Positions 5,114 to 19,401 of a stretch of DNA of 64,000 nt are shown here, one piece after another; position 1 is the first letter of the stretch, and the number at the start of each line of letters is the position of its first letter. Location of the stretch: the NCBI RefSeq assembly GCF_921294215.1, contig NZ_CAKLDM010000001.1, positions 1 through 64,000 of the forward strand, written 5' to 3'. A program made the position numbers and the translations under genes. A model generated the notes under the pieces. That model was not told the origin of the DNA, did not search any database, and saw only the letters and a list, made by a program, of their open reading frames with translations. Source of the DNA: Vibrio marisflavi CECT 7928 (GTDB lineage Bacteria > Pseudomonadota > Gammaproteobacteria > Enterobacterales > Vibrionaceae).

Positions 5114-5380
5114 ATGGATTGCCTACTTGAAGAGTGCTTGGATATATCAACAGTAATGGACTCAAGCTCCAATTACAAAAAATGGCTTAACCTACCAACT
5201 CCAATTCTGATTGATGCATCAAAAGTTGTGCGAGTAGATACTGCTGGCATACAAGCACTTGCGTCACTGTTTGCAACGGCAAGAGCTGCCGATTCCAATA
5301 TACAACTAATAAACGCTACAGACACTTTACTAGAAGGCATTTCTATATTGGGTTTGAGCGATTTATTTGAAATACATTAG
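5114..5380 (+). CDS. STAS-domain protein (SpoIIAA/RsbV-like anti-sigma antagonist type), first gene of the chemotaxis operon
   Basis: 88 residues, essentially one STAS domain. The core motif is DASKVVRVDTAGIQALASL (about 35-53). At the place where SpoIIAA and RsbV carry their phosphorylatable serine (D-S-x-G) this protein has D-T-A-G, so threonine would be the acceptor if it is phosphorylated. A ribosome binding site (AAAGGA) precedes ATG 5114. It begins the operon, 22 bases before cheY. A second STAS gene (15528) and a PP2C/kinase protein (15842) close the same operon, which suggests a partner switch tied to chemotaxis. Similar STAS genes sit beside cluster III of V. cholerae. Confidence 0.85.
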   Translation: MDCLLEECLDISTVMDSSSNYKKWLNLPTPILIDASKVVRVDTAGIQALASLFATARAADSNIQLINATDTLLEGISILGLSDLFEIH

Positions 5381-5402
5381 AGAGAAGTTTGAGAGGCTAA
5401 AG

Positions 5403-5762
5403 ATGACTAAAATCCTTGCGGTAGATGATTCTGTGTCCATTCGTCAGATGGTAAGTCATACATTAAAAGATGCAGGTTATGACGTAGAGACTGCAAATGA
5501 TGGACGCGATGCATTAAACAAGGCAAATAAGACACGGTTTGATGTGGTTATATCCGATGTCAATATGCCGAATATGGGTGGGTTTGATTTTGTTCGAGAG
5601 ATGAGGAACAACCCACAATACAAATTCATACCGATTTTAATGTTGACGACTGAAACCAGTATCGAAAAAAAACAAGAAGGGAAATCGGTTGGTGCTACTG
5701 GGTGGTTAGTGAAACCCTTTAACCCAGAAACTTTACTTAAGACGTTAAAGCGAGTCATCTAA
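5403..5762 (+). CDS. cheY: CheY-type response regulator
   Basis: 119 residues, a stand-alone receiver domain. The acidic pair is D8-D9, the phosphorylation site D52 (ISDVNMP), the switch threonine about T82 and the conserved lysine K104 (LVKP). It should receive phosphate from the CheA encoded next. A TTG at 5367 is in frame and overlaps the STAS gene, but ATG 5403 has GAGAGG 7 bases upstream and gives the normal CheY length. Its target is unknown: CheY proteins of the F7 clusters are not clearly tied to flagellar motor switching. Confidence 0.93.
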   Translation: MTKILAVDDSVSIRQMVSHTLKDAGYDVETANDGRDALNKANKTRFDVVISDVNMPNMGGFDFVREMRNNPQYKFIPILMLTTETSIEKKQEGKSVGATGWLVKPFNPETLLKTLKRVI

Positions 5763-5811: not shown

Positions 5812-7953
5812 ATGGCTTTAGACATGGAAGAGCTACGCAAGATGTTTTACGAGGAGTGTCGTGAAAACCTTGAGGTACTAGAAGGTGTCCTTTTAAAACT
5901 CGATCCCAACGAGGATGATTTAGAGCCAATAAATACAATTTTCCGAGCAGCTCACTCAATAAAGGGTGGAGCGGCGACGTTCAATTTATTCGATATAAGC
6001 GAGTTTACTCACTCTGTTGAAGCCTACCTAGATTTAGTCCGTAATGAAGAACTGAGTTTGACTGTTAGTAGTATTGATGTACTGCTACAAAGTGTCGATT
6101 GCATTATGAACATGCTTGAAGGACATGAAAGTGGTAAAGAAGTAGACGCTAGCCTAAAAGATTCAGTAAGCAAAAAGCTTCATCAGCTATTAGAAAGTGA
6201 ACCAGACAAGCCAGACACCCCATCACAAGTAGCTCCGCCAGAAGAAAAACCTGAAAGTACTCAACCAAGTGACACCGAATCCGACGATTGGAAGGTTACT
6301 TTTGTTCCTCATCCTGAAATGTTTTTCAGTGGTAATGACCCCTTAAGAATTCTAAGGGAGGTTATTGATCTTGATGAAAGCGTTTCGATTACTTGTAATA
6401 GAGACAAATTGCCAGCCATTACCGAGATAGAAGGTGAACTCAGTTACCTTAGCTGGCAGGCGACTTTGTCGGGCTCGATTGAAGAAGAGCAAATACGCGA
6501 AATTTTTGAGTGGGTCGAGGATGAGTGTGACTTACATATAGAGCGAATTAAAACTCATGACGCAATACTAGAAACAGAGTCTCAATCTAACAAATCCGTC
6601 GATATACCGGATAACGGTAATACAGCGACGGCTGAAGTCACACAAGACGCTTCTAAGCAAGCAGCGACAGAGAAAGGTACTGAGAGAAAAACACCGAAAA
6701 ATGAAGTGGCAGATTCAAACACTAAGGTGGCTAAGTCCGAGCCTAGTGTGAGTTCGATACGAGTCGATATTGATAAGGTTGACGGTCTAATTAACCTCGT
6801 TGGTGAATTAGTAATAACGCAGTCCATGCTCGCCGAAATTGGCAATGACTTTACTATCGATAAGCTTGAAAAACTGAAGGCTGGTTTAGACCAACTTTTG
6901 CAAAATAGTAAAGACCTGCAAGAAAATGTGCTCAATATTCGAATGTTGCCGATGAGTTTTGCGTTCAGCCGCTTCCCTAGGCTGGTTCGAGATTTATGCG
7001 GACGACTCGAAAAGCAAGTCGACCTGCAAATAAAAGGTGAAAACACCGAATTAGACAAAACAGTGTTGGAAAGAATCGTTGATCCGCTTGTTCACTTAGT
7101 GCGAAACGGAATCGACCATGGTATCGAAGTGCCACAAGTACGCCTCGAGAACGGGAAGCCCGAACTAGGAACGATTGAGTTAAACGCATTTCATCAAGGT
7201 GGATCAATAATCATCGAGATAATCGATGATGGAGCTGGCATTAACTGCGACAAGTTGTGGGAAAAGGCTTTAGAAAAGGGGGTTGTTCCGTCTGATGCAC
7301 GCCGTGAAGAAATGTCAGATAAGCAGGTCCTAAATTTAATATTCGCTCCTGGGTTTTCTACGGCAGAAGAGGTTTCAGATATTTCCGGCCGTGGCGTTGG
7401 AATGGATGTAGTGAAACGAAACATTGAAGAGTTGGGTGGACACATTGAAGTGGAATCCGAGCTCAATGTAGGTAGTCGCTTCACAATCAGTCTGCCTCTA
7501 ACGCTCGCTATTTTAGATGGTCAATTAGTCAAAGTGGGAGGGGAGGTTTACGTTATTCCTCTTTTAACCATTGTTGAGTCCATCCAAATTGATATGGACT
7601 GCGTGAAATATGCTTCTGGTGGTGTGGAGTTATATCGATTAAGAGAAGAGAACATACCGATACTTCGTTTACAAGATGAGCTGAAAATGGGTGATAGTGG
7701 CCCATTGGATGAGCGTATTTTGTGCTTCGTGGAGGCTGCTGGGAATCGGGTAGGTCTACTGCTTGACGAGTTACTCGATCAGCAACAGGTCGTTATCAAA
7801 AGTCTGGAGTCTAACTACAGCAAGGTGCCTGGTATCTCAGGAGCAACCATTCTAGGCGATGGTTCTGTATCTCTGATTCTTGATATTCAGGGGCTTATTA
7901 CTAGTTTTTTGAGTCGTAACTCTGAGACTGGCCGCAACGGTAGAGCTGCTTAG
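5812..7953 (+). CDS. cheA: Chemotaxis histidine kinase CheA
   Basis: 713 residues. Domains in order: HPt (P1) with phospho-histidine H48 in RAAHSIKGGAATF; a linker; a mixed alpha/beta module at about 160-250 (starting WKVTFVPHPEMFF) which takes the place of the E. coli P2 CheY-docking domain; an acidic/Thr-rich linker; dimerisation (P3, about 310-380); the ATP-binding kinase (P4) with N box LVHLVRNGIDHGIE and G boxes DDGAGI and GRGVGMDVVK; and a C-terminal CheW-like P5 (about 560-700). It lies between cheY and two cheW genes. The central module is typical of CheA proteins outside the enteric flagellar class. Confidence 0.95.
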   Translation: MALDMEELRKMFYEECRENLEVLEGVLLKLDPNEDDLEPINTIFRAAHSIKGGAATFNLFDISEFTHSVEAYLDLVRNEELSLTVSSIDVLLQSVDCIMNMLEGHESGKEVDASLKDSVSKKLHQLLESEPDKPDTPSQVAPPEEKPESTQPSDTESDDWKVTFVPHPEMFFSGNDPLRILREVIDLDESVSITCNRDKLPAITEIEGELSYLSWQATLSGSIEEEQIREIFEWVEDECDLHIERIKTHDAILETESQSNKSVDIPDNGNTATAEVTQDASKQAATEKGTERKTPKNEVADSNTKVAKSEPSVSSIRVDIDKVDGLINLVGELVITQSMLAEIGNDFTIDKLEKLKAGLDQLLQNSKDLQENVLNIRMLPMSFAFSRFPRLVRDLCGRLEKQVDLQIKGENTELDKTVLERIVDPLVHLVRNGIDHGIEVPQVRLENGKPELGTIELNAFHQGGSIIIEIIDDGAGINCDKLWEKALEKGVVPSDARREEMSDKQVLNLIFAPGFSTAEEVSDISGRGVGMDVVKRNIEELGGHIEVESELNVGSRFTISLPLTLAILDGQLVKVGGEVYVIPLLTIVESIQIDMDCVKYASGGVELYRLREENIPILRLQDELKMGDSGPLDERILCFVEAAGNRVGLLLDELLDQQQVVIKSLESNYSKVPGISGATILGDGSVSLILDIQGLITSFLSRNSETGRNGRAA

Positions 7954-7961
7954 GAGGGCGC

Positions 7962-8486
7962 ATGGAAACTGAACAGGAACAAGCAAAAAGAGAACAAGTC
8001 GCTCAAGCAATCGTGGGTATGGTCGATTCAGAAGTAAGTGAAAGTGCGGATTTCTTAAGTTTTGAGTTGGCCAATGAACTTTATGGCGTACAGATCAAAG
8101 ATGTTGAGGAAATTCGAGTATGGGAACAACCCACCCCTATTCCTCATTCACCAGATTACGTAAAAGGTGTGATTAATCTAAGAGGCATGATTGTCCCTGT
8201 TGTCGACCTACGAAGCCGTTTCGATATCGGTGAATGCCACTATTTACCTACTACTGTCGTACTGGTTTTACGACACCGCGCTGGAGATAGCGAACGTTTG
8301 ATGGGACTCGTTGTCGATGCGGTGAGTGATGTGATTAGCCAAGGTGCCAATGAGCTAGCGCCTGCAGTTGGAGACTCGCACATCACGCCCTATTTGCATG
8401 GAGTGTTGAATGTGGGCGACCAAGTGATGTCTCTTCTTGAAACAGAAGAGCTACTCAACATAGAACGGATTCTAAAGGCAGGTTAA
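7962..8486 (+). CDS. cheW: Chemotaxis coupling protein CheW (first copy)
   Basis: 174 residues with a single CheW SH3-like fold that couples receptors to CheA. The signature stretch is VKGVINLRGMIVPVVDLRSRF (about 66-86). It has a polar 30-residue N-terminal extension absent from the second copy. It starts 8 bases after cheA with GGAGG (7952-7956) upstream, and ends 5 bases before the second cheW. Confidence 0.94.
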   Translation: METEQEQAKREQVAQAIVGMVDSEVSESADFLSFELANELYGVQIKDVEEIRVWEQPTPIPHSPDYVKGVINLRGMIVPVVDLRSRFDIGECHYLPTTVVLVLRHRAGDSERLMGLVVDAVSDVISQGANELAPAVGDSHITPYLHGVLNVGDQVMSLLETEELLNIERILKAG

Positions 8487-8491
8487 TAGCT

Positions 8492-8956
8492 ATGGCGACA
8501 CAAGAGTTCTTAAGTTTTATTTTGGACGAAGAAGAATACGGTGTACCTATTCTGGATGTGCGTGAAGTGCGTGGGTGGAGCGAAGTTCGAGAAGTTCCTA
8601 ATTCGCCGCAATATCTATTAGGTGTGCTGGAAATTAGAGGTGAATACATACCCATTGTTGACTTGCGAATGCGTTTTAATTTAGCGCCCGCAACAATAGG
8701 AGCAACGACGGTAGTGATAGTCCTGAATGATGCAGAGAATCATCCATTAGGCATTATCGTTGATGGTGTATCAGAGGTGTACAATTTATCCATTGAAGAG
8801 ATAAAGCCAGCACCTCATATGTCGGTGACGGTCGACGAAAGCTATATCAAAGGGATAGCTTCTGTTGAAAGTGGCCATTTAATTTTGATTAACTTGGAGG
8901 CTCTATTTGATGTTCAGGAGCTAAACAAGACGTCAGTGGAAGAAGTGACAGCTTGA
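8492..8956 (+). CDS. cheW: Chemotaxis coupling protein CheW (second copy)
   Basis: 154 residues. It is a CheW fold without extension; signature [21 protein letters not shown] at about 45-65. The two adjacent copies differ considerably in sequence, so they are likely to have divided functions (for example array core versus rings) rather than being a recent duplication. It ends 10 bases before the receptor gene. Confidence 0.94.
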
Positions 8957-8966
8957 GGGAATATTC

Positions 8967-11768
8967 ATGGCATTTTGGAATAAACGCAAAGAACCAATGA
9001 GTCAATTTGTAGCATCTGCGCAAGACTCGCTAATGGAAGATTATAAAGAGAAAGAAGAAGGGGTGTCTAAGGAGCAGCTTTTATCTGCGCTAAATGCAGC
9101 CCAAACAGCACTTATGATGATAGATAGAGATTTTAAGATCACCTATCTAAATCAACAATCTTTAGATCTACTCAAAACACATCAATCTTTATTTCAATCG
9201 ATTTGGCCAGAATTCCGAGCTGATGAAGAGTATCTCATCGGGTATTGTATCGATGGATTCCATGCCAATCCACAGCACCAGCGGAGTATGTTAGCGAACC
9301 CAAGCAATTTGCCTTATACCACCACTATTGAAGTAAAAGGCGTAAAAATTGAGCTTAATGTTGGTGCGATAATTAATTCATCTGGTGAATATGTTGGCAA
9401 CACACTTGAGTGGGCTGATGTTACCCAGCTTCGAGAAAGAGAAAATGATGTCGCACGACTGCAAGCAGCAGTGGATCAAGCACAAACCGCAATGGTAATG
9501 ATCGATCGGGATTTCAATATTACTTATGCAAATGAACAAACTCTTTCGTTATTTTCTAAGCATGAATCAAAATTTAGGCAAGTATGGCCGGGCTTCATCG
9601 CTTCAGAAGAGTGGTTAATGGGTAGATGTATTGATGAGTTTCATAAGAACCCGGCACATCAGAGGCAGCTTTTAAGCACTCCAGCTAATTTGCCTTACAG
9701 CACTGACATTGAAATAGCTGATCTAAAAATAGAGTTAAACGTCGCCGCTATCGTGGATCTTGAGGGTAACTATATAGGCAATACCTTGGAGTGGGCTGAT
9801 GTTACTGAAGAAAGAGAACAGCAAAACAATGTAGCACGTTTGCAAGGAGCTATTGATCAGGCCCAAACTGCTATGGTGATGATCGATCGTGACTTCAACA
9901 TCACTTACGCAAACCAAGAAACCGTCGATTTGTTTAAGAAGCATGAAGGAACACTTCGTTCAGTATGGCCTGGGTTTGTAGCATCAGAAGAGTGGTTAAT
10001 GGGGCGATGCATTGATGAGTTCCACCGTAACCCTTCTCATCAGCGCAAGCTTTTAGCAGACCCTTCCAACCTACCATACAGCACAGACATTAATATTGCA
10101 GACATTATCATTGAGTTAAATGTAGCTGCGATTTTAGATGCCCAAGGACAATATATCGGCAATACCCTTGAGTGGAGAGATGTCACCGAGGTTCGAGCAA
10201 GAGAAACTGAAGTAGGACGTTTGGCTTCAGCGGTTGAAGGTATGACAACTAACTTAATGATGGCAGACAAAAATGGAGTCATTCAGTACTTGAACCCGTC
10301 TTTGCTCACTTTGCTTAAGTCCAGAGAAAGTGATTTACGTAAAGTTATACCAAGCTTTGATGCAAGTGCTTTGGTTGGTCAAAGCATGGATATTTTCCAC
10401 AAGAACCCGAGCCATCAACAGAGCATTATCAATAATCCCGATAGGCTCCCCTTCTCAGCAGACATTAAGGTTGCAGGGTTGGAGTTTAACTTAACCTGTA
10501 TTGCAATGCATGATGCTAACGGTGTGTACATTGGCCCAGCTTTACAGTGGGAAGATATTACTGAGCAGCGTGATGGACAACGACAAGTTGAATCTTTGAT
10601 ACAAAAGGCAATTGCTGGCGACCTAGAAGAGCGTATCGACACCACAGTATACAGTGGCTTCATGAAAGAGTTAGGCGATGGTATTAACAGCCTATTGGAT
10701 ACACTAGTAGATCCGTTAGGACAATGTATTGATGTAATGAGTCAAGTGGCCAATGGTGACTTGAACAATACTATGTCGGACACTAACCAAGGTGAATTTG
10801 GCCGCTTGGCAGACGCAGTCAATACCTCGATCACCAATATTCGCGACATGGTAGAGAAGATAACTACGTCTTCTGCGCGTGTAGCGACGGCCTCTACCGA
10901 AATTGCCGATGGAAACAACGATCTGAGTCAACGGGTAGAATCACAAGCATCGAACCTTGAAGAAACTGCAGCGAGCATGGAGGAGATGACTGCCACTGTT
11001 AAGCAGAATGCTGATAACGCCAAAGGGGCCAATGAGCTTGCTGATGATGCAGCGCAAAAAGCGGGCAAGGGTGGCGAAGTTGTTGGGCAAGCAGTTTCTG
11101 CCATGTCTGAAATTAACTCTGCAAGTAAAAAAATCTCAGACATTATTGGTGTGATTGACGAAATAGCTTTCCAAACCAACTTACTTGCGTTGAACGCAGC
11201 GGTTGAGGCTGCAAGAGCCGGAGAGCAAGGAAGAGGGTTTGCCGTAGTTGCAGGAGAGGTACGTAACCTTGCTCAACGAAGTGCAGCGGCAGCGAAGGAG
11301 ATTAAAGGGTTAATCAAAGACAGTGTTGAGAAAGTGGATGAAGGCTCACGCTTAGTCGATGAATCTGGAGAGACACTCAATGAAATTGTTGAGGCTGTAG
11401 GCAAGGTGACTCAGCTCGTATCGCAAATTGCCGCATCTAGCGTTGAACAATCAACAGGTATTGATGAAATAAATCGCGCGATTTCGACCATGGATGAGAT
11501 GACCCAGCAGAACGCATCGTTAGTTGAAGAAACATCAGCTGCAAGTCAATCGCTTAAAGACGAAGGTAAACAGCTATTGAAGCTTATGAGCTTCTTTAAC
11601 GACGACAGTAATGTGACTACTTTCGAGCCGACAAGGGCGGCAGCGTCAAGTAGTCAAGCTCCAAAGCGTCGACGAGAAAACAAAAAAGTGAGCCCTATTC
11701 ACAGTGTTAAGGTTGCAAATTCGAACTTAAATGTGAGCGAGGATAGTGACGAATGGGAAGAGTTCTAA
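8967..11768 (+). CDS. Soluble Aer2-type chemoreceptor with four PAS-haem-like domains and a CheR-tether pentapeptide
   Basis: 933 residues with no membrane segment or signal peptide. Four PAS modules follow each other: about 35-155, 165-280, 290-407 and 415-533. Each has the haem-ligand motif of Pseudomonas Aer2 (FHxNPxHQ) with histidines H99, H226, H353 and H478, and the distal tryptophan in LEW/LQW at W149, W276, W403 and W528; His and Trp are 50 residues apart in all four. Two HAMP-like units follow (about 540-628), then a long methyl-accepting domain with the hairpin [31 protein letters not shown] (about 731-761). The last five residues are EWEEF, like the GWEEF tail that tethers CheR2 in P. 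aeruginosa. V. cholerae Aer2 has two such PAS domains. It probably senses oxygen; haem binding is inferred. The cheR gene begins inside its last codons. Confidence 0.93.
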
Positions 11769-12616
11769 CGCGAGAAACCGATCCAATGGATGCCTCAGAG
11801 CAGTCAGAATTTGAGCTAACCGCAAAGGATTTTAAATATATCCAGTGGTTTATGCATAAATCGGTTGGTATTTACTTGGGTGATCGCAAACGCGCCATGG
11901 TGTATGGGCGCGTTAGCCGGCAACTTCGAAGGTTAGGACTCAAGCGCTTCAAAGAATATCGAGAGCTGATAGAAAGTGATGATAACGAGCGTGTGCACTT
12001 TATAAATAGTTTAACAACGAATAAAACGGACTTTTTCCGTGAATACCATCACTTTGAGTTTATAGAGAGGGTTTTAAAGCAGGAATGGCAGGAAAGAGGA
12101 GAGCAATCATTAAAGATATGGTCCGCTGGGTGTTCGACTGGACAGGAGCCTTATAGTTTAATCTCTTCACTTTATGTTTCGGGTATTCTCGAGTGGAGTG
12201 AGAGCTTGTCCATACTTGCAAGCGACCTCGACACTATGGTGTTAGAGAAAGCCAAAGCAGGAATTTATGACGATGAATCAATCAGTACTATTCCTGATGC
12301 TTATCTAAAAAAGTGCTTTGTTAAAGGAAAAAAACAGCAAGACGGAATGATTAAAATCAAAAAGGGATTACAACAATTTATTGATTTTAAACAAATTAAC
12401 TTACTTGATGATTGGCCTATGGATGGGCAGTTTGACCTAATTTCTTGTAGAAATGTGATGATTTATTTTGATAGACCAACACAAGAGCAACTAATTAGGC
12501 GCTTTTACGAATATTTGAAGCCAAACGGGATACTGTTTCTAGGGCATTCTGAGAGTGTCGGTGGGTGTTCAGATATATTCCATCATTTAGGCCATACCAT
12601 CTATGTAAAACAGTGA
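11753..12616 (+). CDS. cheR: Chemoreceptor methyltransferase CheR
   Basis: 287 residues. It transfers methyl groups from SAM to receptor glutamates. N-terminal helical domain (about 20-90), then the SAM fold with [14 protein letters not shown], the acidic [15 protein letters not shown] and [14 protein letters not shown]. It overlaps the receptor gene by 16 bases. ATG 11753 has GAGGA 9 bases upstream; ATG 11786 is a possible shorter start (276 residues) with a weaker site. The neighbouring receptor ends in a CheR-docking pentapeptide, so the pair is probably dedicated. Confidence 0.93.
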
Positions 12617-12623
12617 GGTTGAA

Positions 12624-13271
12624 ATGGCAGCGATGGGAAATACAAAGCTTGAGCATGATGAAACATATATTAATCGCTTCTATCATCCACAAAAGCAGAA
12701 GCACTTGGTGAAAGTCATGCCGGGTGGCGTTTATTGGTCTAGAGATGAAGAAGAAATTATTTGTACTGGATTGGGCTCTTGTGTTGCGGCATGTATCTGG
12801 GACCCTGAGCAACATATCGGTGGATTGAATCACTTTTTGCTGCCATTTGATAACAATAATCAGCTACGACATTGGCATCCTGATGAAGTTGTTTCAACAG
12901 CATCCCGTTATGGAAGTTACGCAATGGAGATGCTTATTAACAGTTTGGTTTCGCATGGAGCATCTAGAGACAACTTAAAAGTTAAGCTATTTGGTGGAGC
13001 CAAAATGATGGGCCACATTTCGATGGTTGGACAGAAAAATATTGAGTTTGTTAGGTGCTATGTTGAGCAAGAAGCTCTGAACGTCATTGCAGAAGATTTA
13101 GGTGGTGATACACCAAGAAAAGTGATGTTTGAGCCTACAACAGGCCGTGTTTGGATTAAGAAACTTCCGTTCAACGAAGTTAATAAAATTCATAAAGAAG
13201 AAGAAAAATACGCAAGTCAATTGGATAAAGAAAGCCATAGAAATCATGATGATGATGCGGAGTTGTTTTAA
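12624..13271 (+). CDS. cheD: Chemoreceptor glutamine deamidase CheD
   Basis: 215 residues. CheD deamidates receptor glutamines and can bind receptors directly. The catalytic cysteine lies in [14 protein letters not shown] and the histidine in [10 protein letters not shown] variable tail of about 35 charged residues (ending DDDAELF) extends past the domain. It starts 7 bases after cheR, and its stop codon overlaps the cheB start (TAATG), indicating translational coupling. Confidence 0.94.
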
Positions 13272-14314
13272 TGACAAATAAGTCCAAAGTATTGGTAGTT
13301 GATGACTCCCCCGTTTTTCGGGCCTTGTTGTGCCAATTAATTAACAGTGATCCGCTATTGGAAGTTGTCGCTGAAGCTGCAGATCCCTATGAAGCGAGAG
13401 ATCTTATCAAGCAGCATAATCCAGATGTATTAACCCTAGATATTGAGATGCCTAAAATGAATGGGGTGCAATTTCTAAGGAACTTAATGCGTTTGAGGCC
13501 AATGCCAGTGGTGATGATCTCTACCTTAACCCAACATGGCGCGGAGGCGACTTTAGAAGCACTGGAATTAGGAGCTGTGGACTACTTCCCAAAGCCTGAT
13601 GTGGAAAATACTGGTGACATGGTCAATTACAAAGACCTCGTCAACGAAAAGATTCGGATGGCAGCTGGTGCCAACATGAACGTTTCCCATTCGTCATCAC
13701 CCGCAACAAAAGTTTGGGATGAGAAAAAAGTAAGTAAAACCTCTTGTGAGGTGATCGCGATAGGAGCTTCAACTGGCGGAACAGAAGCCATTAGGGATGT
13801 ATTATCTGCATTCCCTGCAGGTATGCCACCTATTATTATCTCTCAACATATAAGCGCGATGTTCAGCAAATCATTTGCCAATAGGCTCAATGAATGCAGT
13901 GCAATTGACGTTAAAGAACTCAGTACCAGTTGCGCGCCTCTCGTTTGTGGGAGTGCCTACGTTGCCCCAGGCGATAAGCATATAACCGTTATTCGAAAAG
14001 GTAGTCATTTATATTGCCAGCTGGATGATAGGCCGTTGGTGAATCGGCACAAGCCTTCAGTAGAAGTTATGTTTGATACTGTAGCAGAAACTGTCGGCCA
14101 AAAGGCGGTCGGAATTATATTAACGGGAATGGGAAATGATGGTGCTCAAGGCTTACTGAAAATGAAAAACAAAGGCGCACTGACTATTGCACAAGATGAG
14201 AAATCTAGCGTGGTTTGGGGAATGCCAAGGGTAGCCGTTGAAGTAGGAGCTGCGGAGAAAGTTGTGGACTTGAAAAAGATCCCCAATCTTGTTTGCGAAT
14301 ATTTATTTAAGTGA
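13271..14314 (+). CDS. cheB: Chemoreceptor methylesterase CheB
   Basis: 347 residues. Receiver domain with D11-D12 and phosphorylation site D57 (LDIEMP), a linker of about 30 residues, then the methylesterase domain with the catalytic triad S167 (IGASTGG), H193 (SQHI) and D290 (GMGNDGAQG). It removes methyl groups from receptor glutamates after phosphorylation by CheA. Translation is coupled to cheD by a one-base overlap. Confidence 0.95.
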
Positions 14315-14348: not shown

Positions 14349-15512
14349 ATGGAAAGATTATTTAGAATAAGGAAGTTCCAGTATTTCTTGGCAGTGATAT
14401 TACAGGTTATTTTGCTTGCTATTAGCCTTTTTTTCGCATCCAGCTTATGGCAGCTAGTTTTAGTTGTTTGTATTGCAGCTATTCCATGGGTTCTGCTTTC
14501 TAGCCAACCTAAAGCTGATTTACCAGAGAAAGAAGAAGAGTCCAGAAAGCAAGCAAACCTTACTAAGTCTTTAAAAGAAATAAAAAATATCTTGTCAGAT
14601 GTTCATCCTCAAATATCGGATCCTCTTGCTCGCCAACACACAGTAATCGATGAGTCAGTTGAAACGCTGAATAATTCCTTTTTTACCTTGCAGAAAGTTG
14701 CTGAAGAGCAAAATCAAATTTCTAACCTTTTGGTGGATAACCTGCTAGGAAATCAAGACAGTGAATACAGTTTGACAAAGGTTTTGCCTCGAACTGAAGA
14801 GATTATCGATGAATATGTACAAAGGTTAATCGACGTCTCTGAAAAAAGTATTTCAGCAGTGCATAGTATCCATGATATGTCCGATAAGCTCGGCGTTATA
14901 TTTAAGCTGCTCAATCAAGTCAGAGGCTTATCCGAGCAAACTAACTTATTGGCCTTAAATGCGGCTATTGAAGCCGCTAGAGCAGGTGAGGCTGGTCGTG
15001 GGTTTGCTGTTGTGGCTCAAGAAGTTCGTAACCTATCGATCAAAGCCGATGAGTTAAACAACCAAATTCAAGAAGAGATTGGTATCGCGCAAACAACCGT
15101 TGAACAGGCAAATGAAACGGTTGGGATTATGGCAACAATTGATATGACAGAAGCTATCGAGTCCAAGGAAAAAGTGGATGAAATGTTGCGTGGAGTTCAT
15201 CAGGTAAATATTGGGATAGAGCAGGAAATTCAAAAAATACATCAATTAGGCTCAGAGCTTCATCAACATGTGGACAATGGTATTCGTGCTTTGCAGTTTG
15301 CTGATATTGTTGTTCAGCAAGGTGATTATGCTAAAACTTCAATTGTTTATGTAGAAGATCTCGCCCAAATTGTTGCTCGTTATACCAATCACGAAATTGA
15401 TGAAGAAACACTACTGTCTCAATTAACGCAAATAATCGAGAAGGTGAACGACCGAGGAGATCCTGCGGCAAATCAAGTGAGCATTGAAGAAGGTGAAGTA
15501 GAACTGTTTTAG
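14349..15512 (+). CDS. Membrane-anchored MCP-like protein without a sensor domain
   Basis: 387 residues. Two close hydrophobic segments at about 13-31 and 34-51 form a hairpin, and almost nothing is left in the periplasm. The rest is a long coiled coil containing the signalling hairpin [38 protein letters not shown] (about 196-235). There is no PAS, Cache or HAMP domain. V. cholerae cluster III has a similar gene at the same place. It may respond to membrane state or to partner proteins; the ligand is unknown. It sits 34 bases after cheB. Confidence 0.85.
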
Positions 15513-15527
15513 GGAGTATAACAATTC

Positions 15528-15827
15528 ATGACAGTTGAAACGAATATAGATCAAAACTCGAAACGTGTGACGATTTCAATTGAGGGTGCGTTTGGTTTTA
15601 ATTTGGTACAAGAGTTTCGTCGCGCGTATTTAGATCGAAAAGAATTTCAGTTTGTAATCGATCTCAGGAAAGTTGACTACATAGATAGTGCTGGCCTTGG
15701 CATGCTTCTAAACATGCAAAATTACTTGGGTCAAGGTGACAAGGCTATTGCAATTACCAATACACTACCGCAAGTGAAAAAGATCTTATTAATTTCGAGG
15801 TTTGATAAGAAGTTCAGTATTGATTGA
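15528..15827 (+). CDS. STAS-domain protein (anti-sigma antagonist type)
   Basis: 99 residues, a single STAS domain. The phosphorylation motif is intact: VDYIDSAGLGMLLNM (about 48-62) with serine in D-S-A-G, as in SpoIIAA and RsbV. It is likely to be phosphorylated by the kinase domain and dephosphorylated by the PP2C domain of the protein encoded next, with which it forms a gene pair. Preceded by GGGAG (15513-15517). Confidence 0.88.
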   Translation: MTVETNIDQNSKRVTISIEGAFGFNLVQEFRRAYLDRKEFQFVIDLRKVDYIDSAGLGMLLNMQNYLGQGDKAIAITNTLPQVKKILLISRFDKKFSID

Positions 15828-15841
15828 TCGAGGGGCTGTCT

Positions 15842-17536
15842 ATGCGAGTAATGATCGTTGATGATCATGAAACGAATAGAGAATTATGTCGTTACATGTT
15901 GGCTAATGTTGCAGAAGCAATTGACACTTTTGAAGACGGTGAACATGTTGTCAATGCGATGAAAGAAATGGCAGTGCTACCAGATGTGATATTGCTAGAT
16001 GTCATGATGCCTGTGAAAAATGGCTTTGAGACAGCTGCCGAGATCAGAAACGCTTTTCCCGACAACCATATTCCAATTATTTTCTTAACCGTATTAGATG
16101 ATCACGACTCTTTTGAGCGCAGTTTAGCATTAGGTGATGATTTTATATTAAAGCCTGTGGAAAGGAGTGTATTGGTTGCCAAAGTACAGGCTCATCACCG
16201 CATTGTTAAAATGCACAAAGAGGTGATAAATCAGCGCGATGAACTACAACACTTTCACGAGCATGTAAAATATGACTACGCAATCGCGGAGTCCATTTTT
16301 ACCAATCTAATGGACGAGATGAGTTCTCAAGTCAATCATATATATGGCCTGAACTACATCTCCACTCCGTCCACCATTTTCAATGGTGATTTGATTGTCG
16401 TTGCCAATCGTCCGCACGGTGGTGTTTACGTTATGATTGCAGATGCAACAGGCCATGGTTTGCCTGCTGCGATTTCCGCAATTCCTGCGACGAGAGCGTT
16501 TTTCTCTATGGCTGCTAAGGGGATGTCACTGGGAGAAATTGTCACGGAGATTAACAATTCATTGGTGAAATTTTTGCCGTTAGGGATGATGCTTGCGGCA
16601 AGTGTATTTGAAGTTAGAGCAAATGGTTTTGAAGTTTCTTGGTGGGGTGGTGGGCTACCAGATGCTTATGTACTCGGTGCTGATGGTAAAATAATTCGCA
16701 GGTTGGAATCGAATCATATGCCGCTTGGCGTATTGAAAGAGCACGAGTTTGAGACCAATTTAGTGCACTTAAAGCTTGAGCCTAACCAGCAGATTATTAG
16801 TTATACAGATGGAATTACAGAAGCTTCCAACCAAGAAGGAGAACAGTTTGGTTCTGAACGGTTAGAGAAAGTAATACAAGAGAGCAAAAATATCATCTCT
16901 AACCTTTATGACAAGGTACAACAGTTTACCTCTCAAGGGAGAGATGACGATTTATCCATCCTTGCAATGAACTTCCCAATATCTAACGGTGCAGATTTGA
17001 TAGAACCGATGGAAGGGATAAGTATGCGCTCTTTACCAATAAGAGCTGCACTCAACTTTCCCTGTGAGGTACTTAAGGACGCAGTAGTTATGAATGAAGT
17101 GCGTCAGTACTTGATGGGAACCATTCCTGGTGGTGGACACCTTGATTTAATCTGCTCTGTTTTGTCAGAGCTATTTGCCAATGCTATTGAACACGGTCTG
17201 TTGTGTTTGGACTCAAAAATAAAAGACGATCCTGATGGGTTCTTTAATTTCTACCTTATCCGCGAACAAAAGCTAAGTGAACTAGAGGATAGTGCATTCC
17301 TTGAACTGCGATTAGAGTTTTTGCCTAAGGAGGGGTTGCTCAAAATGGAACTAGAACACAACGGTGAAGGCTTTGATTACGAGAAATTTGATGACGTGAA
17401 TAGTGAACAAACCTATGGACGTGGTATTGTTCTTGCTACGGAATTGTGTGAATCGTTGCAATATTCTAAGCAAGGGAAGTGTGTTACCGCGGTCTATAAT
17501 TTTGATGCCACACACCATTTTCCAAGCTCTTTGTAA
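15842..17536 (+). CDS. Response regulator fused to SpoIIE/RsbU-type PP2C phosphatase and anti-sigma-type kinase
   Basis: 564 residues from ATG 15842 (GAGGGG just upstream); a TTG at 15824 is in frame but overlaps the STAS gene. Domains: receiver with phosphorylation site D53 (LLDVMMP); a coiled linker (about 120-165); PP2C domain (about 175-380) with metal residues in FNGDLIV, IADATGHGLP, SYTDGITEA and GRDDDLSIL; and a C-terminal HATPase of the RsbW/SpoIIAB type with ELFANAIEHG and YGRGIVLATEL. Phosphatase and kinase in one chain would set the phosphorylation state of the STAS protein encoded just before, under control of CheA through the receiver. It ends the chemotaxis operon. Confidence 0.9.
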   Translation: MRVMIVDDHETNRELCRYMLANVAEAIDTFEDGEHVVNAMKEMAVLPDVILLDVMMPVKNGFETAAEIRNAFPDNHIPIIFLTVLDDHDSFERSLALGDDFILKPVERSVLVAKVQAHHRIVKMHKEVINQRDELQHFHEHVKYDYAIAESIFTNLMDEMSSQVNHIYGLNYISTPSTIFNGDLIVVANRPHGGVYVMIADATGHGLPAAISAIPATRAFFSMAAKGMSLGEIVTEINNSLVKFLPLGMMLAASVFEVRANGFEVSWWGGGLPDAYVLGADGKIIRRLESNHMPLGVLKEHEFETNLVHLKLEPNQQIISYTDGITEASNQEGEQFGSERLEKVIQESKNIISNLYDKVQQFTSQGRDDDLSILAMNFPISNGADLIEPMEGISMRSLPIRAALNFPCEVLKDAVVMNEVRQYLMGTIPGGGHLDLICSVLSELFANAIEHGLLCLDSKIKDDPDGFFNFYLIREQKLSELEDSAFLELRLEFLPKEGLLKMELEHNGEGFDYEKFDDVNSEQTYGRGIVLATELCESLQYSKQGKCVTAVYNFDATHHFPSSL

Positions 17537-17721: not shown

Positions 17722-19401
17722 ATGTGGAATAAGTTCGTTTCAATGTCTGAGGACAGTACATATGTGACGGCAAAGCTGTCTCCAGATATAACTGTTGATA
17801 GCAATTTTAGTACTCGAGGGCTAGATGAAGCGCTGGCCGAGTTATCAGCAAACAAGTTTTTTGTACTTGAGGAAGAAGTTAATAAATTCATCAACTGTGC
17901 GAAAGAAATGAAAGGAGAGGCATACTCCGGCATTCGAGTCGCCGAAATGCGTGATTCGTCTGTTGAGGTTACGCTCGACGACGAAGAGATGTTGGCTAGT
18001 ATGCTTGTTACTGGCGCTTATGATGGTAAACCCCTCAATGGTCCAGATATTATTAAAGCGCTGGCTGATGCTCAAGTGACTAAAGGAATTAACAAACTTG
18101 CGCTAAAGAAAGTGATGGTAATGAGTGCCAAACTCAAACCGGGTGAAACGTTTACTCAGCCAGTAGCTCAAGGTAAAAGGCCTATTCAAGGCAAAGACGC
18201 ACGATTTGTTCCACTCGTTGAAGACGTGAGTAAGCGTGTATTGGCCCCGAAAAAGAAAGATGACGTGGGCAATGTGGATATGAAGAACTTGGGTGAAACG
18301 ATCACTGTTGAAGTGAATCAACCCTTAATGAAGAAAGTTCCAGCCACTCAAGGTACTCCCGGATTAACTGTTCAAGGTAAAGTTATCTATCCCAAGCCCG
18401 GTGATGATTCCCCTCTAACTGAAGGTTCTGGATCAGCAATCTCTCCCAAGGACCCAAATATTCTTATCGCCGTAGAGTCTGGATTACCTATACTCAAGCC
18501 CAAAACGGTTGATGTTGAAAATGCACTCTGCCTCAAATCAGTTGGCGTAGGTACAGGTCACGTCAAGTTTAAAGGCAATGTAGTTATCAATGGTGATATA
18601 GAATCCGATATGGTGGTGCGTGCAACAGGCTCAATTACAGTGGGCGGGTTTATCGAGTCTGCAGATGTACAAGCTAAGGGTGATATCGTTGTAGCAAAAG
18701 GTATCATCGGCCACACGGTACCAGAAGGCTCAGAGAAAAGCTGTGTTGTAAAATCTGCGGGAAGTATTAAAGCGAATTATGCACAATACGTAAAGATTCA
18801 AGCAGCAGAAAACATCGAGCTGTCCGTGCATTGTATGGGGAACGAGTTAAGTTGTGGTAAAGATCTTAGCGTATCTGATGCTGGTGGAAAGCAAGGAACA
18901 CTAAGTGGTGGTGTCACCAAAGCTGGTGGCAAGATCTCTTGCGTGAATTTAGGTGTAGAAGGAGATACTCCTACATTGGTGGAAGCTTTCGCTCGCTACG
19001 GTAAATTCAAAGACCGTTTATCCAAGCTGAAAGAGAGATATAAGCTTGCCCAAGAAGGGACGATGGAAGTGGTACGCAAAGAGCTTGATTTTAAAAAGCT
19101 ACCCAAAGAAGAGCGAACTCCAGAAGCTGAGCAAGAGTTAGAAGACTTTAAAGTAAGTGCCAATGAGAAGTTAGAAAAGGCGAAAAATGCTGTAGAAGCG
19201 ATGGAAGCGGACTTTGAAGAGCAGTTAGAAAACAGCACAATCGAAGCAAAAAACAAGGTTTATACACACGTGACGATTCAATATGCTGAAGAAAAGCTCA
19301 TCACTAAAAGGGTACATGGCCCAAGTATATTCTCATTCAACAAGTATCAAATAGAGTGTACTTCAAAGCTTGGTAGTGAAGCTATAGAAGGAGACGCTTA
19401 G
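17722..19401 (+). CDS. DUF342 (FapA-like) protein
   Basis: 559 residues, no signal peptide or membrane segment. The N-terminal and central parts match the DUF342/FapA family: a run of glycine-rich beta repeats (about 270-420, for example GNVVINGDIESDMVVRATG and KAGGKISCVNLG) expected to form a right-handed beta helix or bactofilin-like stack. A long charged coiled coil follows (about 430-530). Family members in vibrios are linked to flagellar synthesis and to binding of EIIA-Glc, but this copy has not been assigned. The proximity to the chemotaxis operon is suggestive. ATG 17722 has a poor ribosome site; ATG 17743 is an alternative start. Confidence 0.8.
   Translation: MWNKFVSMSEDSTYVTAKLSPDITVDSNFSTRGLDEALAELSANKFFVLEEEVNKFINCAKEMKGEAYSGIRVAEMRDSSVEVTLDDEEMLASMLVTGAYDGKPLNGPDIIKALADAQVTKGINKLALKKVMVMSAKLKPGETFTQPVAQGKRPIQGKDARFVPLVEDVSKRVLAPKKKDDVGNVDMKNLGETITVEVNQPLMKKVPATQGTPGLTVQGKVIYPKPGDDSPLTEGSGSAISPKDPNILIAVESGLPILKPKTVDVENALCLKSVGVGTGHVKFKGNVVINGDIESDMVVRATGSITVGGFIESADVQAKGDIVVAKGIIGHTVPEGSEKSCVVKSAGSIKANYAQYVKIQAAENIELSVHCMGNELSCGKDLSVSDAGGKQGTLSGGVTKAGGKISCVNLGVEGDTPTLVEAFARYGKFKDRLSKLKERYKLAQEGTMEVVRKELDFKKLPKEERTPEAEQELEDFKVSANEKLEKAKNAVEAMEADFEEQLENSTIEAKNKVYTHVTIQYAEEKLITKRVHGPSIFSFNKYQIECTSKLGSEAIEGDA

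Follow-up and report, generated by a model that had tools for sequence, protein, structure and literature searches.

A four-PAS Aer2-type chemoreceptor in an F7-type operon of Vibrio marisflavi, and the varying number of predicted haem-PAS modules among its relatives

Results

The window analysed here is a stretch of 64,000 nucleotides from Vibrio marisflavi CECT 7928 (assembly GCF_921294215.1, contig NZ_CAKLDM010000001.1, positions 1 to 64,000 of the forward strand), in which an aer2-type chemoreceptor gene lies on the + strand at 8967..11768. From an ATG start it encodes a protein of 933 aa, ordered PAS1-PAS2-PAS3-PAS4-HAMP(s)-MCPsignal-pentapeptide. PAS1 (residues 35-156; 9069..9434, +; His99 and Trp149) is of the class that we call 'first'; PAS2 (residues 162-283; 9450..9815, +; His226 and Trp276) and PAS3 (residues 289-410; 9831..10196, +; His353 and Trp403) are of the 'middle' class; and PAS4 (residues 416-535; 10212..10571, +; His478 and Trp528) is of the HAMP-proximal 'last' class. 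There follows a HAMP region (residues 536-627; 10572..10847, +), in which Pfam calls one HAMP (564-627); from the architecture of V. cholerae Aer2, as given in excerpts of PMC7184735 and PMC7534058, a further HAMP would be expected ahead of it. Besides PAS-type stretches, Pfam finds the MCP signalling domain (MCPsignal, PF00015, residues 690-846; 11034..11504, +; 196.6 bits). The protein ends in the pentapeptide EWEEF (11751..11765, +), which fits x-[HFYW]-x2-[HFYW], reported as the tether motif of Aer2 receptors; Aer2-like receptors are assigned in the same source a signalling domain of the 36H heptad class (PMC7184735, excerpts).

The motif FHxNPxHQ begins at residues 98, 225, 352 and 477, giving the four His at 99, 226, 353 and 478; these units, with Trp 149, 276, 403 and 528, lie at the very residues at which a preliminary description of this DNA had placed them. 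No FHxNPxHQ motif arose in 20,000 residue shuffles of the protein, and a degenerate DNA pattern for the motif has four matches across the whole genome (4.78 Mb), all of them within the aer2 gene, against 0 for the reversed pattern used as a control. The further statement in that description, that the receptor is Aer2-like, agrees both with a family score and with the PDB matches of each unit. The protein scores 1781.9 bits against the NCBIfam model NF041847.1 (Vibrio aerotaxis transducer Aer2, an equivalog; cut-off 1200), a model of 804 aa, which is the length of the three-PAS forms. In PDB searches by phmmer (E<=0.01) each PAS unit aligns to Aer2 haem-PAS chains, namely 3vol and 4hi4 of P. 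aeruginosa and 6ceq of V. cholerae, and no sequence other than Aer2 haem-PAS chains was matched by any unit at that threshold (best E from PAS1 to PAS4: 2e-19, 1.2e-21, 9.7e-19 and 4.3e-47). PAS4 is closest to 6ceq (162.7 bits), which has Leu at the position aligned with Trp528 and which we take to be an engineered mutant.

The AlphaFold2 monomer model of the protein (mean pLDDT 68.4, pTM 0.34) is weak outside the PAS units, over which the 10-residue pLDDT blocks lie mostly at 75-90, with 59 at residues 411-430. In this model each motif His stands immediately after a short helix (95-98, 222-225, 349-352 and 474-477) and each Trp lies in the last strand of its unit (142-151, 269-278, 396-405 and 521-530); we take the helix to be Eeta and the final strand to be Ibeta in PAS nomenclature. 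Searched as a whole with Foldseek, the model gave 85 matches at E<=0.001, with 6ceq at rank 1, 3vol at rank 9 and 4hi4 at rank 13, and high ranks were also taken by the haem sensor DosP, NifL, PpsR and MCP chains. A model of PAS3 folded alone from the single sequence had a pLDDT of 43.1 and was discarded. By sequence, the window protein is an Aer2 family member with four predicted Aer2-type haem-PAS pockets and a tether peptide, encoded in the F7-type operon described below.

The operon lies entirely on the + strand. Upstream of aer2 are a CheY-type response regulator (5367..5762; called from a mechanical TTG start, an internal ATG probably being the real one) and, from a domain scan, CheA (5812..7953) and two CheW proteins (7962..8486 and 8492..8956). 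The end of aer2 is overlapped by a gene for a CheR-like methyltransferase (11753..12616), after which come CheD-like (12624..13271) and CheB-like (13271..14314) genes, all three named from sequence and operon order, and a short McpA-like MCP (14349..15512). By gene order (CheY, CheA, two CheW, Aer2, CheR, CheD, CheB, McpA-like) this is an F7-type cluster, and the che genes stand in the same order in most of the 61 long loci of relatives (61/84 loci, each at least 17.5 kb), in which tblastn matches, counted anywhere in the locus, were obtained for cheY in 59, cheA in 59, cheR in 59, cheD in 57 and cheB in 59. The McpA-like protein ends in EVELF, with Val second in the tether motif, as in P. aeruginosa McpA, for which excerpts of PMC7184735 report Val at this position and no binding of CheR.

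Beyond these genes lie a STAS protein of anti-sigma-factor-antagonist type (15528..15827, +), CrsA-like by architecture, and a receiver-SpoIIE/PP2C phosphatase-HATPase_c_2 protein (15824..17536, +; mechanical TTG start), CrsR-like by architecture; as called, the two genes overlap by 4 bases. A FapA/DUF342-type gene (17722-19401) directly follows the F7 cluster and was matched in 12/61 long loci, some of which end too early to include it. Against the antagonist model TIGR00377 the STAS protein scores 46.7 bits, below the cut-off of 53.45. The architecture of the CrsR/CrsA partner switch, receiver-PP2C-HATPase with STAS, is nonetheless present in the window, the former domain set being presumably that of CrsR. 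In S. oneidensis the che1 locus is reported to carry CrsR/CrsA as a partner switch on RpoS (PMC9855816, excerpts), and in V. cholerae RpoS has been linked to expression of the F7 cluster, the role of which is described as poorly understood (PMC7534058, excerpts). The pair is thus a candidate for the output of the array, and a path from O2 to the stress response through it seems plausible by analogy. Within the available flank, STAS and PP2C-type genes are both found downstream in 26/61 long loci and the pair is absent from 35/61, including those of Shewanella (L058 and L059), and such an output therefore cannot be general.

Among the PAS units of the window protein, PAS2 and PAS3 are the most alike (78% aa identity, the other five pairs lying at 39-57%), which bears out the internal duplication suggested in the preliminary description. 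This duplication does not look recent, because the two units are 70.2% identical in nucleotides and 24/32 comparable fourfold sites differ, which is near saturation. A recent PAS2/PAS3 duplication in the window lineage, which we had considered, is thus not supported by the DNA, and the protein tree cannot date the event. In AM-375-E20, units 2 and 3 are 97% identical in DNA, and to judge from this they are a fresh duplication.

Relationships among units were examined in two quick trees of receptors hand-picked from 197, one Vibrio-centred (25 receptors with 96 units, from vibrios and a few neighbours) and one wider (22 receptors with 98 units); both rest on 122 columns and carry long-branch warnings, with open forks at 45/91 and 30/93 inner branches. 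The AU test rejects the four units of the window as one clade (p=7.5e-09) and does not reject a clade of PAS2 with PAS3 (p=0.562); the tree constrained to hold this clade surpassed the quick one by 3.85 log units. In the Vibrio-centred tree itself the partner of PAS3 is V. sinus unit 4 (97), and PAS2 sits inside an eight-row group that includes V. sinus units 2 and 3 (90); V. sinus is absent from the wider tree. In the Vibrio-centred tree the HAMP-proximal units form a single clade (25/25, SH-aLRT 100), and 22/25 first units form another (SH-aLRT 98), with 3/25 outside. In the wider tree the 22 last units come close to a single group, requiring 3 changes; the first units, which require 14, do not, and often group with middle units of their own lineage. 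We therefore rejected fixed ends as a general rule outside vibrios and regard the conserved N-terminal unit as a vibrio feature. In both trees the units that have multiplied inside individual lineages are the middle ones, as in V. profundum, AM-375-E20, Colwellia and Sessilibacter, among others. Across 67 receptors, 17 columns separate the first, middle and last classes.

Compared with P0072, a protein named V. vulnificus, PAS4 is 75% identical to unit 3, and PAS2 and PAS3 are 73% and 75% identical to unit 2. PAS1 is 62% identical to unit 1, and PAS2 is slightly closer to that unit (64%) than PAS1 is; the orthology of PAS1 therefore rests on the tree, which places it with unit 1 of P0072 in the 'first' clade (SH-aLRT 98). 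Judged from these sequence relationships, PAS2 and PAS3 jointly occupy the place of the single middle unit of three-PAS receptors.

The number of units was counted in 197 receptors, made up of 121 proteins (P0001 and the best 120 of 3028, out of 7992 scored candidates, a ranking by score that favours many-unit proteins) and 76 locus ORFs; P0001, P0004 and L001 are all the window's own protein. The ORFs had passed a filter for a frame of 450 aa with at least one FHxNPxH, which removed 8/84 loci, namely L002-L004 (other receptors of the window genome) and the relatives L017, L020, L025, L036 and L049. Counts span 1 to 8 units. Among the 121 proteins (P0001 and the best 120 of 3028), three units occur in 57, four in 26, five in 30, six in 5, seven in 2 and eight in 1; of the 76 locus ORFs, 1 has one unit, 29 have two, 34 three, 7 four, 4 five and 1 six; and the five relatives first filtered out have 3, 3, 3, 3 and 2. 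The tether motif x-[HFYW]-x2-[HFYW] is present in 119/121 of the proteins (P0001 and the best 120 of 3028).

Of 329 genomes of the window's family, 95 have a match at E<=1e-140. By frame length, a proxy calibrated on Vibrio loci and less sure beyond Vibrio, these 95 divide into 8 two-PAS (671-694 aa), 61 three-PAS (785-834), about 12 four-PAS (927-954 aa, the window included), 3 five-PAS (1069-1077) and 3 six-PAS forms (1182-1187), with 2 of odd length (855 and 898) and 6 short or cut (661 or less). To judge from these lengths and counts, three PAS is the usual form and four a recurring minority. The preliminary description, which called for PAS number to be surveyed in homologs, had listed receptors with one and two PAS; those stand, and the list was incomplete, a three-PAS V. 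vulnificus Aer2 being in print. It had also allowed that four-PAS forms might already be characterised in many vibrios, and in the open-licence literature searched we found no report of a four-PAS Aer2. Four PAS is thus one module beyond the published one, two and three, and not a new kind of receptor. Two proteins named V. amylolyticus have 5 and 4 units and are 84% identical; at this identity they may not be of one species, and we did not retain them as a case of strain-level change in copy number.

With the five re-examined loci included (202 receptors), the motif His is present in 702/706 units and the Trp in 705/706. The first set accounts for His in 690/692 and Trp in 692/692, the two missing His being a gap in P0024 (named partial) and a Phe in L077; the re-examined loci account for His in 12/14 and Trp in 13/14. 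Across 24 four-unit sequences, the window included (24/26 four-unit proteins), none of the eight His/Trp varies. When the 692 units were reduced to 270 that are <80% identical, Trp was the most conserved column (270/270) and His the second (269/270), with an Asn column level with His (268/269). A permissive search for a further degenerate PAS unit gave 0/197 receptors; its profile was built from His/Trp-bearing units, which brings some circularity and a bias toward finding such units. Neighbouring motif His are 127, 125 or 131 residues apart in 480/495 pairs, a spacing that leaves little room for skipped units.

The statement that every unit keeps His and Trp had nevertheless to be narrowed to nearly every unit. 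Four of the five re-examined relatives are intact (11 units), and the fifth, Veronia pacifica L025 (ORF from 7971; units at residues 27-146, 152-273 and 280-398), has the Trp of unit 1 replaced by Phe, and the His replaced by Tyr in unit 2 and by Phe in unit 3. This could be a natural haem-free form, and the loss of His or Trp in each unit, the output unit included, suggests that the receptor family can exist without a full pocket.

Discussion

We propose that the window protein is most likely a soluble Aer2 receptor for O2 with four tandem haem-b PAS modules, which organises an F7 chemosensory array. Each PAS would hold haem b on its motif His, with O2 binding to the haem face opposite this His, near the Trp, and in a dimer the PAS modules would pile up into a rod standing on the HAMP modules. 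As the orthologue of the last PAS in two- and three-PAS receptors, PAS4 would signal via HAMP to the kinase-control tip and so to CheA; PAS2 and PAS3 would each be a copy of the modulating PAS found in the middle of the V. vulnificus three-PAS receptor; and PAS1 would be the N-terminal module. The least certain step is the output: from CheA the signal may pass to the receiver in the neighbouring PP2C/STAS partner switch, and so to the general stress response, and not to the flagellum.

According to a review (PMC13401364, excerpts), each PAS of the three-PAS V. vulnificus Aer2 binds haem and the three have similar O2 affinities; PAS3 is regulated by PAS2 and signals downstream, and PAS1 is worded as 'largely indispensable'. 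Orthology to this receptor leads us to expect that PAS4 is the output unit of the window protein and that PAS2/PAS3 form a duplicated modulator. Aer2 is reported to be required for the F7 array of V. cholerae (PMC7184735, PMC7534058, excerpts). In cryo-ET of F7 arrays, the layers assigned to PAS modules appear at 24.5 +/- 1.4 and 30.1 +/- 2.3 nm (PMC7184735, excerpts), or about 5.6 nm per PAS with an error of a few nm, and with the 38 nm given for the two-PAS V. cholerae array (PMC7534058, excerpts) they suggest that, assuming a straight stack, a four-PAS array would measure near 49 nm.

The tri-PAS-haem Aer2 of V. vulnificus (Stuffle et al. 2022, via excerpts of PMC13401364) belongs to the same family and has the same first-middle-last order, differing from the window protein in having one middle PAS fewer; P0072, which we take to be that receptor, has three His/Trp units, 62-75% identical to those of the window, and likewise ends in EWEEF. 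The V. cholerae Aer2 was reportedly described as a dual PAS-haem receptor by Greer-Phillips et al. in 2018. It too is an F7 array receptor (PMC7184735, PMC7534058, excerpts), the one to whose solved PAS (6ceq) the window's PAS4 is closest, and differs in having two PAS, and so no middle one. Two V. cholerae genes seem to go by the name Aer2, namely VCA0658 in earlier aerotaxis work and VCA1092 as the haem receptor: PMC9777591, in the excerpts available, likens its aer2 to an earlier 'Aer-2 (VCA0658)' and has VCA1092 also among its six genes. Aerotaxis phenotypes should therefore not be transferred unchecked between them. The P. aeruginosa Aer2/McpB holds haem in its PAS through a His, as predicted for the window protein, has two HAMPs ahead of the tip, as would be expected there too, and carries the CheR-tether pentapeptide that the window protein also has (PMC7184735, PMC13401364, excerpts); it differs in having one PAS and three N-terminal HAMPs. 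The che1 locus of S. oneidensis shares Aer2 (Aer2so), a second MCP (McpA) and regulator/antagonist genes (PMC9855816, excerpts); its Aer2 has two PAS, and the RpoS partner switch is reported there and only proposed for the window.

PAS folds in general are known to bind many ligands, and the motif-bearing units might accordingly bind another (flavin, for example) or none, their likeness to Aer2 being one of fold. We hold this to be very improbable: the sole PDB sequence matches of each unit (E<=0.01) are Aer2 haem-PAS, and S. oneidensis Aer2, with the same His/Trp, is reported to show b-haem spectra (PMC9855816, excerpts). It is also improbable, if less so, that the extra PAS serve chiefly as spacers and determine how tall the array stands, with haem incidental or absent. 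The regular His-His spacing, which suggests that modules are added whole, would suit such a role, as would the two cryo-ET layers (PMC7184735, excerpts) and the retention of three PAS in Veronia L025 after each had lost its His or Trp. A spacer, however, needs no haem ligand, yet the His and Trp are kept in almost every one of the 706 units, and the permissive search (with its bias toward His/Trp units) found no receptor among the 197 with a further, degenerate unit.

The four haems might instead act jointly as a graded or cooperative O2 sensor, differing affinities widening the range or coupling sharpening the response. Four intact predicted pockets, the columns that separate first, middle and last units, and the modulation of PAS3 by PAS2 in V. 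vulnificus (PMC13401364, excerpts) all speak for this; what speaks against a graded range is that all three V. vulnificus PAS have similar O2 affinities. The 'graded' sensor of the preliminary description would thus fit poorly with units that, by analogy with V. vulnificus (PMC13401364, excerpts), should have similar affinities and different signalling roles, and we think a joint sensor of either kind rather unlikely. Somewhat better placed, while still doubtful, is the idea that the receptor drives flagellar aerotaxis and not a stress-response partner switch. The operon has its own CheY, and Vibrio Aer2 can work through the E. coli chemotaxis system (PMC13401364, PMC7534058, excerpts); against this, in V. 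cholerae only the F6 cluster is reported to control motility (PMC7534058, excerpts), and the aerotaxis reported for a gene named aer2 (PMC9777591, excerpts) may concern another gene. Narrowing the claims of a fixed first unit and of unbroken His/Trp did not change our estimate of the proposed reading, since neither touches the residues or the family of the window protein itself.

The more interesting part is, to our minds, the pattern that the family's sequences suggest, of a conserved output unit, a multiplying middle and haem ligands left almost untouched. As a speculation, which we would not expect to prove right as a whole, the receptor could be an 'accordion' sensor, in which entire haem modules are gained or lost, by unequal crossing-over, in front of the conserved HAMP-proximal output unit, tuning the number of O2 sites (1 to 8 PAS, with a globin in some lineages), the sharpness of the switch and the height of the array, and feeding a stress-response partner switch; in vibrios, as an equally speculative part of the same reading, the added modules would mostly lie also behind a conserved N-terminal unit. 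The vibrio receptors share their output module and carry 2 to 7 closely related, predicted haem modules; this natural series could address how O2 affinity, cooperativity and the height of the array depend on module number. The V. cholerae F7 arrays are described as without a known cellular response (PMC7534058, excerpts), for which the PP2C/STAS pair offers a concrete candidate.

Some relatives also carry a globin domain. In 35/121 proteins (P0001 and the best 120 of 3028), including P0005, P0033, P0061 and P0087, precomputed Pfam annotation places an N-terminal globin ahead of 4-6 PAS, and hmmscan was used to check four of the 35. The His at P0087 position 81 is present in 34/35, the P0005 globin resembles bacterial globins of solved structure (3s1i, E 1e-26), and in P0061 there are two Globin stretches together with a match to Protoglobin; if all of these domains bind, such receptors would hold several haems per chain. 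PAS and globin have been reported together in one cytoplasmic MCP (BMC Genomics 2018, PMC6194562, excerpts), in seven proteins named in Corallococcus, Colwellia, Glaciecola and others. The globin there is Bac_globin (PF01152), that of the relatives here is PF00042, and the window protein has none.

The window genome also encodes another chemoreceptor (L002:1537-3870, -; G000:C2 near 2094400) with, counted by eye, four tandem PAS-like units that carry an HHxMF motif. FHxNPxHQ is absent from it and we rejected it as a fellow Aer2; its four tandem units suggest that tandem amplification of PAS is not special to Aer2 in this organism.
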